Positions 110 through 28,813 of a stretch of 35,478 bases of DNA are shown piece by piece. Each line of letters begins with the position of its first letter. Positions within the stretch are counted from its first letter, which is position 1. The translations under genes and the position numbers were made by a program. Source of the DNA: an uncultured Paenalcaligenes sp. (GTDB lineage: Bacteria > Pseudomonadota > Gammaproteobacteria > Burkholderiales > Burkholderiaceae_B); assembly GCA_947632305.1 (NCBI GenBank), contig CANROS010000014.1, positions 1 to 35,478 on the forward strand. Reading direction: 5' to 3'. The notes under the pieces are model-generated. The model was given only the letters and a program-made list of their open reading frames with translations. It ran no database searches and had not been told where the DNA came from.

Positions 110-3073
110 TTATAGTGTACGGGCGATTTCTTTGATTTCGAAAATTTCAAGCTGGTCGCCGACTTCGAGATCATTATTGCCACGTAAAGTAATACCGCAA
201 TCAAAGCCTTGACGTACTTCACGTACATCGTCTTTAAAGCGACGTAAGGATTCGAGGTGACCAGTCCAAATAACCACGTTACTACGCAGCAAACGAACCT
301 GAGAATCACGCTTCACGATGCCCTCAGTGACCATACAACCAGCCACTTTACCGATACGAGAAATATGGTAGACCTCGCGAATCTCGACCATACCGATGAC
401 TTCTTCGCGTTGCTCAGGAGTCAACATGCCGGACAGTGCCGCTTTGACTTCGTCTACCGCGTCGTAAATGACGTTGTAGTAACGAATATCAATGCCATTC
501 AGCTCAGCTTGTTTGCGAGCAGTGGCTTCGGCACGTACGTTAAAGCCTAGGACTACTGCATTAGAGGCAATAGCTAAGTTCACGTCACTTTCAGAAATAC
601 CACCCACAGCAGCGTGTACCACTTGAACTTTAACTTCATCAGTAGATAGTTTTAGCAAGGAGTTAACCAGGGCTTCTTGAGAACCTTGTACGTCTGTTTT
701 AATGATGAGTGAAAGCACTTTGGCTTCTTCACCTGCATTTTCAAACAAAGACTCCAAGCGAGCGGCTTGTTGACGCGCCAATTTCACGTCACGGAATTTA
801 CCTTGACGGAACAGGGCGATTTCACGTGCTTTACGCTCGTCAACCATGGCGATAAGCTCATCACCAGCGGCTGGTACTTCGGTCAGGCCTTGGATTTCCA
901 CCGGAATGGAAGGACCGGCATCGGCCAAGTTTTTACCGATTTCATTGCTCATGGCACGCACACGGCCAAAGCTAGCGCCTACCAATACGGTGTCACCACG
1001 ATTCAATGTACCGCTTTGAACCAAGATAGTCGCTACAGGGCCACGACCACGGTCTAGACGGGCTTCGATCACAGTACCGCGTGCAGGTGTATTAACTGGA
1101 GCAGTTAGCTCTAGCATTTCAGCCTGTAACAACACGTGCTCTAGAAGATCATCAATCCCCTGACCGGAGCGAGCAGAAACCGGCACAAAAGGTACATCAC
1201 CACCGAACTCTTCGGGGATGACTTCTTCGGCGACTAGTTCTTGTTTAACACGCTCTGGGTTAGCTTCGGGCTTATCAATTTTGGTGATAGCCACCACAAT
1301 AGGCACACCTGCAGCACGCGCATGATGAATGGCCTCGCGTGTTTGCGGCATCACACCATCATCAGAAGCCACAACCAAGATCACCACGTCAGTGGACTTG
1401 GTACCACGAGCACGCATCGCCGTAAAGGCTTCGTGACCGGGGGTATCTAAGAAGGTAATCGTACCGCGATCGGTTTTTACGTTGTAAGCACCAATGTGTT
1501 GGGTAATACCACCCGCTTCACCGGCAGCGATCTTAGCGCGGCGAATATGGTCAAGCAAGGACGTTTTACCATGATCCACGTGACCCATTACGGTTACCAC
1601 TGGAGCGCGAGGCTCTTCTTGGATTTCGCCTACAAATACGTCCTCGAGGAAGGACTCAGGATCGTCTAGCTTGGCAGCTATTGCCTTGTGGCCCATTTCC
1701 TCAACCAAAATCATCGCTGTTTCTTGGTCTAACACCTGATTAATGGTCACCATTTGACCTAATTTCATGAGGTGCTTAATGACTTCAGTGGCTTTAATGG
1801 CCATTTTGTGTGCTAGATCAGCCACTGTAACCGTTTCAGGCACAGCCACTTCGCGAGAAATAAACTCGGGCTGCTGTGGCTGCTGTTGACGCTGATCTTC
1901 GTCACGGCCTCGACGACCACGACGGCCACCACGCGATGACGCACGCCAAGCTTCTTTGCCTGCCCCTGCGCCTGCTGCAGCCACATCGGCTTTGGATGTC
2001 TTGCGGCGATTATCGGTCCACGTGCCATCAGCGGCCTTAGCGGCTGGTTTTACAACCTTTTTCGCTTCAGGAGCTTTGCTTTCTTTTTTGCTGCTCGTCT
2101 TCACCGCTTGTTTGTTTTCTTTTTCAGGATCTGCTGCACGCAGAACCTTGCGCGGACGATTTAACATCTCACTAATTGCTGCGGCTTCCGCTGCGGCGGC
2201 ACGTCGCGCACGATCGCGCTCACGTTCGGCAGCAGGATCAGTAGAAGCGTCAGAAATGGGGTGACGATCAGCTGACGGAGCAACGGTTTTAGTTGCTGCA
2301 CGGGGTTTGTTGGATGCTGCTGCGCCACGTCCTTTGGACGGCTCATTGCGCGCAGGGCTTGTTTTTTTAGGGGAGGATTTTTTATCTTCGACCACGTTAT
2401 CCTGTTTTTTCGTCTGTTCTGCCACGGCAGGCTTTACCTCATCAGCCTTTTCTACAGAATCAGGCTGCTTATTAACTGGCGTCTGTTTCACCTCGGGAGT
2501 GCTCTCGGGCTCGGGAGCTGGAGCTGGGGGTGTAGCAGACTGCTCGATTGGTGCGGCACCCGGCTCGATAGACTCGGCGGGCGATGGTGTAACAGCGGAT
2601 GGCGCTTTAGGGGCGACTTCCTCTGGGGCTACCTGAGGGGTAGGTTCTGTTTTAGGAGCTTCTTTGGGGGTGGCTACTGGAGCCGTTTCAGTAACGGGAG
2701 GCTTGGGAGCCGGGGCTACTGTTTCGTTTGACTGAGTCGATGCTGGGACTGCGGCAGCTTGCTCCTGTGCTTTATCAGCTTCTGCCAATAACTCAGTAGT
2801 ATCACGTTTCACAAACACACGACGCTTGCGTGTTTCTACAGGTATGGTGCGTGAGCGACCTGAACCATCTGCCTGACGAATCTCAGACGTTTTACGACGT
2901 GTCAGGGTAATTTTATCGCCCCGCATCGACTCCATCAATTTAGCCTTATCTGCTGCAGTGATGACATCGTTTACCGATTTTACCTGAACCCCTGCACTAC
3001 GCAGTTGCTCTAACAACGTTTCAGCGGGCGTTTTTAGCTCTTTAGCGAACTGTTCAACTGTGTTACTCGGCAT
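110..3073 (-). CDS. infB: Translation initiation factor IF-2
   Basis: 987 aa; IF2_N-like N-terminus, Pro/Ala/Lys-rich linker, G domain [30 protein letters not shown]. Confidence 0.98.
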
Positions 3074-3154: not shown

Positions 3155-4633
3155 TTACTCATTGAACCAGTGGGCTCGGGCGCGCATAATAAAGGCACTG
3201 GCCTCTGCGCTATCCATACCAGCCATTTCCGCTAGTTCATCTGTAGCAAGCTCTGCTAGATCATCTAGGGTTAGCACCCCTTTTGCAGCCAAACTTGCCA
3301 AAATATCAGGAGTCATTCCTTCTAGTTCTTGTAGTGCTTGTGACACGGATTGCATTAGCTCTTCTTTGGCTATTGCATCGGATAACAAGACATTACGAGC
3401 GCGAGTACGCAGGGCCTCGACGAGCTCTTCATCAAACTCTTCGATATCGAGGAGTTCTTGTAGAGGCACGTAGGCGACTTCTTCTAGACCTGTGAACCCT
3501 TCGTCAACTAAAACTTCCGCGATGCTCTCATCCACGTCTAGACGTTGGATGAACAACTGCAGAAGCTCTGAGCGCTCTTCAGCTTGACGATTATGGTTTT
3601 CTTCGGGGGTCATGATGTTGATCTGCCATCCGGTTAGCTCGGAAGCTAAACGCACGTTTTGACCACGTGAGCCAATAGCTTTGGGTAGATTTTCTTCGTC
3701 TACCACTACATCCATGGCGTGCTTGTCTTCATCAACCAAAATAGATTGCACATTGGCAGGTGCCAAAGCACCAATCACGAACTCGGCTGGATCCGCAGAC
3801 CACAACACAATGTCAACTTGCTCTCCACCGAGTTCATTACGTACTGCAGTCACACGTGAACCACGCATGCCTACACATGTGCCTATGGGATCAATACGTT
3901 GATCATAGGCAATAACAGCAATTTTAGCGCGCACACCGGCATCACGAGCCGCTGCTTTGATTTCTAAAAGACCCTGTTCAATTTCAGGGACTTCATTTTC
4001 AAACAACTCTCGAATGAACTCAGGTGCGGTACGAGACAAAAACACCTGCTGACCCCGAGCGGCACGATCCACACGCTGCACCCAGGCTCGTACACGGTCG
4101 CCCATACGAATGTTTTCTTTAGGGATCATCTCGCTACGTGGTAGACGTGCTTCGATTTTACCCATTTCAATAATGGCGTCTCCTTTATCGATACGTTTTA
4201 CGGTACCAGAGACAATGGTTTCGCCACGATCAAGGAAATCATTGAGCATTTGCTCTCGTTCGGCATCGCGAATCCGTTGCAAAATAGCCTGTTTGGCGGC
4301 TTGGGCACCAATACGACCAAATGCGATGGACTCTAGAGGCTCTTCGATGTAGTCGCCTACTTCGATCTCAGGGGCATACTCGAGCGCATCAGAATACATT
4401 TCCTGTTTATCTGGCTCTTGTAAGCCAGCCTCGTCAGGCACAACCAACCAACGGCGATAACTTTCGTACTCGCCAGTGATACGGTCGATATCTACGCGAA
4501 TATCCACATCTTCTTCGAAGCGTCTTTTCATGGCAGCTGCCAAGGCCCCTTCAAGGGCTCCAAAAACCACTTCTGGCTCTACGCCTTTTTCACGCGCCAG
4601 TGCATCGACTAGCAAAAGAATTTCGCGACTCAT
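3155..4633 (-). CDS. nusA: Transcription termination/antitermination protein NusA
   Basis: 492 aa; S1/KH region ([51 protein letters not shown]) and C-terminal acidic repeats. Confidence 0.98.
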
Positions 4634-5121
4634 CGCTTTCTACCCTTGAAATCAAGAATGGGATCTAATTTAGCTCGATCAACATCATCTAAACAGAACG
4701 TTAAATCGAGCACTTCACCCGAAGACTGTTCTAGCTCTAACACAAATTCGGTATCTGCTGTGGCCTCGGATGGCTCTAAGCCCTCGGGCGCATACAGCAA
4801 ACCGCGAAATACCTTTTGGTTGTTTACAGGCTCAAATAAACGTAGCTCTATACGTGAACCCGAAAAGCGGACGAAATCAGCCGGGCGCTTTAAGGGACGA
4901 TCCACCCCAGGCGAGGTGACTTCGAGACGGTCATAGTCTATGTTTTCCACTTCGAAAACACGCGACAGTTGTTTAGAAACCTGTTCACAATGGTCAATAG
5001 TAATGCCATCGGGATGGTCAATAACAACCCGTAATAAGCCTTTGGGAGCACGTTCTACATCAACGAGCTCTAGGTCTGTACCCAACAGGCTTTCTTGAGT
5101 TAGTGCAAAAATATCTGTCAT
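4630..5121 (-). CDS. rimP: Ribosome maturation factor RimP
   Basis: Protein [61 protein letters not shown]...[14 protein letters not shown]. The ORF track begins at a TTG (5130); the ATG at 5121 is preferred. The stop overlaps the nusA ATG by 4 nt. Confidence 0.95.
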
Positions 5122-5128
5122 AAAATCC

Positions 5129-5155
5129 AAAAAAAATGGGCTGTATGCCAGCCCA
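5129..5155 (-). terminator. Intrinsic terminator in the rimP 5' leader (candidate attenuator)
   Basis: Minus strand TGGGCTG-GCATA-CAGCCCA followed by TTTTTTTT; perfect 7-bp stem, 5-nt loop, U8, ending 8 nt upstream of the rimP ATG. Confidence 0.8.
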
Positions 5156-5165
5156 CTGCTACTGT

Positions 5166-5279
5166 ATGTCGTAACAACTACAACATCAGCTCATTGCTAA
5201 ACGATGCCCTAAAGAGCTTATCGGTCTTAATCACCATGATATCGAAGATAGCTGTTGATAAAAAGACCGTATTAAGCCC
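5166..5279 (-). ncRNA. Structured 5' leader upstream of the rimP terminator
   Basis: Minus strand: GGGCUUA-AUA-CGGUCUU pairs with AAGACCG-A-UAAGCUC (14 bp, one G-U; 5263-5279 with 5214-5228), then AUGUUGUA/UACGACAU (8 bp, one wobble; 5166-5173 with 5179-5186), then the terminator. Confidence 0.5.
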
Positions 5280-5282
5280 TAT

Positions 5283-5291
5283 ATTCTAACA
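5283..5291 (-). promoter_or_regulatory. Putative extended -10 promoter for rimP-nusA-infB
   Basis: Minus strand TGTTAGAAT (TGn + TAGAAT); the predicted start near 5276-5280 coincides with the 5' edge of the long leader helix. Confidence 0.4.
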
Positions 5292-5394: not shown

Positions 5395-6942
5395 TTAGCG
5401 ACCACGTCGCCCAACACGACCCAGTTTGGACTCGTGAGCCCCAGCACCAGGCTGACGCTCATCACGACGACCACCGCCAGCACGTGCAGGTCTACGGGAC
5501 TCTGTTGACGTGTTTTTTCGTTCAGTACCAAAACGGCGCTGCCCTGAAGACGCTGTCGCCGAACGCGACTGACCACCACGCTGAGGACGAGCTGAACGCC
5601 CTGCCTCGGGATGACCATTCGCCAAACCACCGCTGACCAACAAACCGGTCCCTGCGGCTTCGCCAATTAAATGGGGCTGCCCCAGACCAGAACCCTGGCG
5701 GGGAGTTCGACGCACAGGACGCTCTGGCTTTTCAAAGCCTGGAGGCATCGCACTGTCATGCGTTAACGGCTGCTGAGAACGTCGACCACCGCGTTGGCGC
5801 CCTTCGTTCACTGAGCCATCTGTACGCAATAAACCCAAACGTACCATCAAAGCCGTAGCCATTTCAGAAGAGAGCTCTTCCCAACGCCCACGACGCAAGT
5901 TGCTCGGTAACACCACTTCGCCAAAACGCGTACGAATCAGCCGGCTTACAGTTAAACCGACGGCTTCGAACATGCGACGCACTTCACGATTACGACCTTC
6001 GGAGATAGTCACTCGGTACCAGCGATTACTGCCCTCGCCGCCCACAAACTCCAACGAGCCAAATTGCGCCATGCCATCATCGAGCTCAATACCCGTGGTT
6101 AGCTGTTTCATTTGCTCTGGCGTTAATTCACCTAAAACCCGTACCGCGTACTCGCGCTCGGCCCCATAACGAGGATGCATGAAACGATGAGCCAAATCAC
6201 CTGAGTTAGTGAAGATCAATAAACCCTCAGTATTTAAGTCCAAGCGTCCTACAGACAACCACTTGCCCATTTTAATACTGGGCAAACGAGAAAACACAGT
6301 ATCGCGTTTACCTGGGTCATCATGGCTGACGATTTCACCTGCGGGCTTGTGATATAGAATCACGCGCGGCGGCTTGTCTGCATTAGGTCGCTTGATGATG
6401 CGACCATTAATGCGCACGAGGTCTTCTGCTGCGACGCGCTGCCCTATGTAAGCAGGCTCGCCATTCACAGAAACACGCCCAGAAATAATCAACTCTTCCA
6501 TTTCTCGACGCGAACCCACACCTGCATCCGCTAAGACTTTATGCAACTTAGGCTTTACCGCATCGGAACTAAGAAAACGGTCTAAACGTTGAGCGGTCGC
6601 CTCTGTATTCTCTAAAAAAGACAAGCCTAAATCTGAATCATCCACATTACGAACTGGACGTTTTGTGTTTGTGCGACCTGAGCTGGATCGGTTCGCATTG
6701 GGTTTGTTTGTATTGGATCGATTGGTATTACGGGGGTGCTTCGCCACTGGAGCAGCGGCTTTTTCTTGTTCAGCCACCGGCTGAAAAGGAGCACTGCCGG
6801 AACTTTTACGTGTTTTTTGTTCTTGTACGGCATCCCCGCGACGGCGTCTAAATGGGGTGCGCAACTTGCGCCCTTTACCTTTTGGCGCAGAGGTCGATGC
6901 AACCACCGCCCCATCGGCAGCTGGCTGTTTGGTATCAGTCAT
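5395..6942 (-). CDS. rluB: 23S rRNA pseudouridine synthase (RluB-type) with long basic N- and C-terminal extensions
   Basis: S4 domain [30 protein letters not shown]; catalytic [27 protein letters not shown]; Arg/Gly-rich low-complexity tail. Confidence 0.92.
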
Positions 6943-7600: not shown

Positions 7601-7629
7601 TTGCATTTTATTTTTAGCTCAGCTATTAT
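7601..7629 (+). promoter_or_regulatory. Putative sigma70 promoter of the first tRNA-fMet
   Basis: TTGCAT (7601-7606) - 17 bp - TATTAT (7624-7629), 11 bp before the tRNA. Confidence 0.6.
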
Positions 7630-7640
7630 AACAAATCTGA

Positions 7641-7717
<77 letters not shown>

Positions 7718-7722
7718 AATTC

Positions 7723-7757
7723 AAAAGCCTCGAACATATTTTGTTCGGGGCTTTTTT
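7723..7757 (+). terminator. Intrinsic terminator of tRNA-fMet copy 1
   Basis: AAAAGCCTCGAACA-TATT-TTGTTCGGGGCTTTTTT stem-loop plus U-tract. Confidence 0.9.
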
Positions 7758-7858
7758 ATTGCCACCATCAAACACAGCTCTGTTGCACTTGAACGCTGAT
7801 ACCACGGCATGGCAGCAAGCTTGGCTTCAACCAAAGCTCCCACCATCCATTTTAGGGC

Positions 7859-7887
7859 TTGACATTATACCTAGCGTCTATTACTAT
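7859..7887 (+). promoter_or_regulatory. Putative sigma70 promoter of the second tRNA-fMet
   Basis: TTGACA (7859-7864) - 17 bp - TACTAT (7882-7887), 11 bp before the tRNA. Confidence 0.75.
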
Positions 7888-7898
7888 ACTATTTCTGA

Positions 7899-7975
<77 letters not shown>

Positions 7976-7980
7976 AATTC

Positions 7981-8018
7981 AAAAGCCTCGAACATATATT
8001 TGTTCGGGGCTTTTTTTA
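7981..8018 (+). terminator. Intrinsic terminator of tRNA-fMet copy 2
   Basis: AAAAGCCTCGAACA-loop-TGTTCGGGGCTTTTTTT; same arms as terminator 1 with a slightly longer loop. May also act on the convergent VF530-like gene. Confidence 0.9.
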
Positions 8019-28662: not shown

Positions 28663-28813
28663 AATTTATAACGCTTCACCTATATGGATGCTTCACCCAT
28701 CTTGATGCAGGAAAACCTTCCGCGACACGGCTTCACCGATTAGCGGATAGCAGAGCAGAAGGCACGTAACGCCTTTCACAGCGATTCCTTTCAGTATATA
28801 TCACTAAAGGCAG
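28663..28813 (-). ncRNA. Structured odhA 5' leader, candidate sucA-type cis-regulatory RNA
   Basis: Minus-strand hairpins CCUUUAGU/ACU(G)AAAGG (28787-28810), AAGGC/GCCUU (28759-28775), GGAA/UUCC (28710-28721); three GGTGAAGC octamers. A 'sucA RNA motif' is known in 5' UTRs of Burkholderiales sucA; identity here not tested. Confidence 0.5.
28673..28737 (-). repeat. Three perfect copies of GGTGAAGC in the odhA leader
   Basis: + strand GCTTCACC at 28673-28680, 28690-28697 and 28730-28737. Confidence 0.9.

Follow-up and report, generated by a model that had tools for sequence, protein, structure and literature searches.

The rimP operon and its promoter

Why should an intrinsic terminator stand directly before rimP, and what does the folded RNA ahead of it contribute? 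The question arises from a 35,478-nt stretch of DNA (the window) belonging to an uncultured member of the genus Paenalcaligenes, family Alcaligenaceae, which we analyzed together with ten genus-level neighbours, including P. hominis, P. suwonensis and P. niemegkensis. Gene order on the minus strand is rluB, rimP, nusA, infB, with identities confirmed by NCBIfam. The upstream neighbour rluB (5395–6942) lies on the same strand as rimP and ends at 5395. The operon begins with rimP (4630–5121; NF000929 RimP, above cut-off), whose ATG is at 5121, and continues on the one strand with nusA (3155–4633; TIGR01953 NusA, 401 bits) and infB, encoding IF-2 (110–3073; TIGR00487 IF-2, 826 bits), so that the terminator precedes nusA within the same operon. 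An extended –10 promoter element, TGTTAGAAT, is present at 5283–5291 on the minus strand. Nearly all family leaders carry such an element at the matching position, as CTGTTAGAAT or a close variant. Given the usual spacing of 6–7 nt, transcription is predicted to start near G5277.

A strong, conserved terminator precedes rimP

The terminator (5129–5157, minus strand) consists of a AGUGGGCUG-GCAUA-CAGCCCAUU stem followed by U8. In terms of the DNA, TGGGCTG (5155–5149) and CAGCCCA (5143–5137) flank the loop GCATA (5148–5144), and the U tract (5136–5129) ends 7 nt from the rimP ATG. For the 30-nt terminator element, the folding energy is –15.2 kcal/mol (z = –4.7), and none of 200 shuffled sequences did as well. 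The whole leader (5280–5121) folds at –54.4 kcal/mol (z = –5.7), and full-length folds of the window leader gave the terminator a probability of 1.00. The initial annotation had reported a hairpin and U8 just before the rimP ATG, and had reasoned that the gap leaves no room for a promoter, obliging all rimP transcripts to pass the terminator. Both points were borne out, and the conserved promoter lies on the far side of the hairpin.

Conservation extends well beyond the genus. Of 89 distinct Alcaligenaceae leaders, 84 retain the core GGGCUG/CAGCCC, and family terminators are usually 6–10 nt from rimP. We also searched 56 genomes of the class with the pattern TGGGC-N3-14-GCCCAT6, without using rimP in the search. 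This gave 16 matches, one per genome, in 16 of the 56 genomes; 12 of the 16 are followed, 9–98 nt further on, by an identically oriented RimP domain (L172 among the loci resolved). The looser pattern GGGC..GCCC-T5 is not specific, since about 25 matches, some overlapping, were found in the genome. In two reduced genomes of the family (L032 and L035; 2.0 and 0.8 Mb), the rimP terminator motif was not recognisable, which suggests that the attenuator has been lost from them.

The hairpin might be nothing more than the ordinary 3′ terminator of rluB, unrelated to rimP, since rluB shares its strand and ends upstream of it. But the promoter arrangement described above, with the conserved promoter before the hairpin and no room for one after it, is at odds with this. 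Moreover, in two relatives from the same order (L044 and L051), 5S rRNA takes the place of rluB as the upstream gene, and the terminator still adjoins rimP. A terminator that stays with rimP beside 5S rRNA does not serve to end the gene upstream, and assignment to rluB is extremely improbable.

The terminator matches a known motif but not the Rfam model

Naville and Gautheret (2010) reported, 4–130 nt before rimP, a short terminator whose stem has an unusual conserved motif, GGGc..gCCC, and is followed by a U run; they saw no antiterminator and proposed NusA as the regulator (PMC2965389). The window leader shares the gene and the position (an intrinsic terminator 7 nt upstream of rimP in a rimP-nusA-infB operon), the stem and U run (GGGCUG/CAGCCC-U8), and the lack of a conserved antiterminator (arm sequestration equals that of shuffled sequences, and the proposed pairs are not conserved; see below). 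Judged by its sequence, the terminator is not new: it is the rimP-leader terminator motif of these authors. The published motif, however, was described mainly from Firmicutes and Gammaproteobacteria and lacks a larger conserved element (PMC2965389), whereas here a co-varying 5′ domain precedes the terminator.

Rfam represents rimP by RF01770, an enterobacterial tandem-terminator leader of the same operon which, like the window leader, is an RNA ending in a terminator. This model (gathering score 47 bits) found no match in the window, even at E-values up to 10; across 41 genomes, no match exceeded the cut-off, while the E. coli positive control was found. Two sub-threshold matches (L141 on G003:C56 and L142 on G050:C1; about 36 bits versus the cut-off of 47) lie away from located rimP genes and are likely due to chance. 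Thus the model fits the E. coli control only, leaving the rimP loci of the window and its relatives without a match, and RF01770 covers only the enterobacterial form of the rimP leader. More broadly, no Rfam family was detected in the window leader or in the loci of 14 relatives. The initial annotation had mentioned the enterobacterial leader and seen no sign of the same RNA here. That remains correct for the RF01770 model, but not for the terminator, which carries the published rimP-leader motif.

No antiterminator is conserved

It had also been proposed that the leader is an RNA switch, in which a 5′ GGGCU or a later AGGGC pairs with the AGCCC arm of the terminator to form an antiterminator. 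The complementarity exists in the window, and a 5′ GGGCUU is common in the family. Yet AGGGC (5210–5206) is private to the window genome, with AGAGC or UGAGC in four other close species. The 5′ GGG varies between genera and is lost in L006, L007, Alcaligenes species and others. If transcription starts near G5277, the transcript may lack some of the 5′ GGGCU, and part of the GGG may lie upstream of the start site. We also folded transcripts cut before the 3′ arm of the terminator and calculated the upstream pairing probability of the 5′ arm. Across 89 leaders, mean sequestration of this arm was 0.76 versus 0.74 in shuffled sequences, and the window leader fell below its own shuffles (0.45 versus 0.77). 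A few relatives (L079, L082, L085 and L100) do have a terminator arm predicted to be sequestered. With pairs that are not conserved and sequestration no better than that of shuffled sequence, an RNA antiterminator is very unlikely. The lack of such a signal fits control by a protein.

Other candidate elements were examined and rejected. A nut/boxA-type site, GCUCUUUA, which coincides with the 5′ arm and loop of the small hairpin Hb (see below), occurs in the window and L003 only; other leaders have GCUCAUAG, GCUCUCAG or GCUCUUUUU. A possible leader peptide was read by eye in the window as an AUG–UAG frame of about 19 codons (AUGGUGAUUAAG...), and its AUG is absent in L003.

A co-varying 5′ domain in Paenalcaligenes

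The upstream part of the leader is itself stably folded relative to shuffled sequences (z = –3.4). The helices originally noted there, GGGCUUA-AUA-CGGUCUU with AAGACCG-A-UAAGCUC and AUGUUGUA with UACGACAU, are present as described. The first of these forms the 5′ hairpin H1 (5214–5279, minus strand), with arms at 5279–5263 and 5228–5214. MAFFT misaligned H1, so covariation was counted not from alignment A2 but after placing the arms by anchors. In five Paenalcaligenes species, 23 of 25 cognate H1 pairs form, and the inner stem CGGUC/GACCG is replaced by CAAUA/UAUUG in L004 and L005, a compensatory change. Hairpin H3 (5162–5189, minus strand), CUG-AUGUUGU with ACGACAU-A-CAG, also co-varies. With its arms placed solely by flanking conserved sequence, 34 of 35 cognate pairs form in the five species, and the cognate assignment is the best of all 120 between-species arm pairings.

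Two more elements follow H1. The small hairpin Hb (5206–5217, minus strand), GCUC-UUUA-GGGC, is mutually exclusive with the base of H1. All 20 of its 20 pairs form in the five species, and its loop varies (UUUA, AUA, UCA, UUUUU); the arms hardly vary, which leaves no scope for a covariation test. A conserved block between H1 and H3, GCAUCGUUUAGCAAUGAGCUG (5187–5207, minus strand), may form a GUUUA-GCAA-UGAGC tetraloop hairpin. It is near-invariant in alignment A2 and occurs with 0–1 mismatch in five Paenalcaligenes genomes, at the rimP leader only. We considered a regulon sharing this block and rejected it, as the only perfect or one-mismatch matches in 11 genus genomes are those of the rimP leader. 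The terminator is conserved with rimP across family and class, and the helices upstream of it co-vary.

Leader domains elsewhere in the family

On the Pusillimonas/Candidimonas/Castellaniella side of the Alcaligenaceae, 32 leaders carry an analogous H1+H2 module. Here, GCUAUAUUGU pairs with ACAAU..UAGC, and a GGCACAUU-UUCG-AAUGCGUC hairpin follows. For 16 leaders with diverged arms, cognate H1 duplexes of the Pusillimonas group summed to –160.8, versus –104.1 (sd 8.9) for re-paired arms, and 0 of 20,000 permutations were as good, counts that ignore shared ancestry. In the Yanghanlia subgroup, the second hairpin was not evident by eye, and the sequence GGCACAUUU is kept. Conservation also goes beyond pairing, with GCAUCGUUUAGCAAUG kept in one clade and UAGCGGCACAUUU in the other. 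Just before the terminator, a CRRUA-like element is present in 55 of 89 leaders, compared to about 4 expected from base shuffles; we treat this sequence element as a lead only for factor binding. Achromobacter rimP leaders (L123, L124, L129 and L131) show a conserved AGGUCGCAAUAUAGGGCAC..GCCCAGCAUUGCUCCUUACGUG..GUAGGG before the terminator, a further clade-specific leader domain. Absent from Rfam, the predicted Alcaligenaceae-specific 5′ RNA domain is the new part of this leader.

Probable NusA feedback and a possible role of the 5′ domain

On balance, we favour the reading that the leader is a rimP-leader attenuator of rimP-nusA-infB, in which the stopped fraction most likely rises with NusA, limiting NusA's own operon. 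RNA polymerase would start at the promoter near 5277 and make a leader of about 145 nt before meeting the strong intrinsic terminator ahead of rimP. Some polymerases would stop there, releasing a short leader RNA, and the rest would read through into the operon. Because NusA aids hairpin formation and U-tract termination, more of it would most likely mean a larger stopped fraction. Feedback by NusA at the terminator is, by analogy, the most likely mechanism.

Work on other bacteria is consistent with this. For B. subtilis, NusA autoregulation by termination in its own 5′ leader is stated in one source (PMC12288461), which cites Mondal et al. 2016; as in the window, an intrinsic terminator lies in the nusA-operon leader. 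NusA-stimulated termination is demonstrated in that organism and is proposed by analogy for Alcaligenaceae, and no counterpart has been described for the family's 5′ domain. In S. agalactiae (gbs0413–gbs0418), a short leader RNA runs to an intrinsic terminator before rimP-nusA-infB, as is proposed here. This RNA ends 31 nt after the transcription start site, too early to contain an upstream domain, and feedback by NusA was proposed (PMC4448216). In E. coli, transcripts of the operon become more abundant when there is less NusA-dependent termination (PMC6511841). The autoregulation put forward in the initial annotation is thus not original, but it is plausible, as it fits published work on the operon elsewhere.

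A strong terminator might instead act mostly by fixed leakage. It would then cut operon expression by a constant fraction, with the upstream hairpins serving as 5′ stabilisers without regulation. The strength and near-invariance of the terminator fit such constitutive down-tuning, as does the failure to detect a switch. But the stem is conserved in sequence to a degree that far exceeds the needs of a terminator, and NusA feedback on this operon has been documented in other species. We regard fixed down-tuning as unlikely.

NusA feedback at the terminator accounts less well for the upstream RNA: simple NusA-dependent termination, proposed elsewhere with very short leaders, leaves the co-varying 5′ domain unexplained. 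This domain (H1, the small hairpins and H3) probably keeps the RNA locally folded and the terminator stem free. Possible roles include insulating the terminator, making the released leader more stable and binding a factor; NusA or some other factor might dock there. A more specific version holds that readthrough is set by a particular regulator bound to the 5′ domain, be it the KH/S1 domains of NusA, RimP, a further product of the operon or a small molecule; the domain would then be a lineage-specific regulatory RNA added to an old rimP terminator. Covariation of H1 and H3 in Paenalcaligenes and of H1 in the Pusillimonas group speaks for binding, as do the conservation beyond pairing and the excess of CRRUA-like elements. 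However, the domain is not the same in every clade, some family members have a short version or none at all, and the permutation counts do not allow for shared ancestry. We give regulator binding some weight but hold it unlikely. Rather unlikely, too, is the broader proposal that the Alcaligenaceae rimP leader is an unrecognised regulatory RNA, whose fast-evolving, co-varying 5′ domain binds NusA or another operon product and sets passage past an ancient terminator.

The analysis links this unannotated leader from Betaproteobacteria to an attenuator that ranks among the most widespread known and for which feedback by NusA has been demonstrated in few species. With its lineage-specific, co-varying domain, the family offers a testing ground for a long-standing question, namely what controls the rimP terminator.

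Other features of the window

Elsewhere in the window, a SucA RNA motif (RF01070) is present at 28672–28753 on the minus strand, scoring 59 bits, above the gathering score. At 7624–8015 on the plus strand is a 134-nt tandem duplication (91% identical, spacing 258) with two tRNA-Met(CAT) genes. In E. coli, the tRNA gene metY precedes the same operon; the duplicated tRNA-Met(CAT) genes here are on the strand opposite to the operon, beyond scpB.
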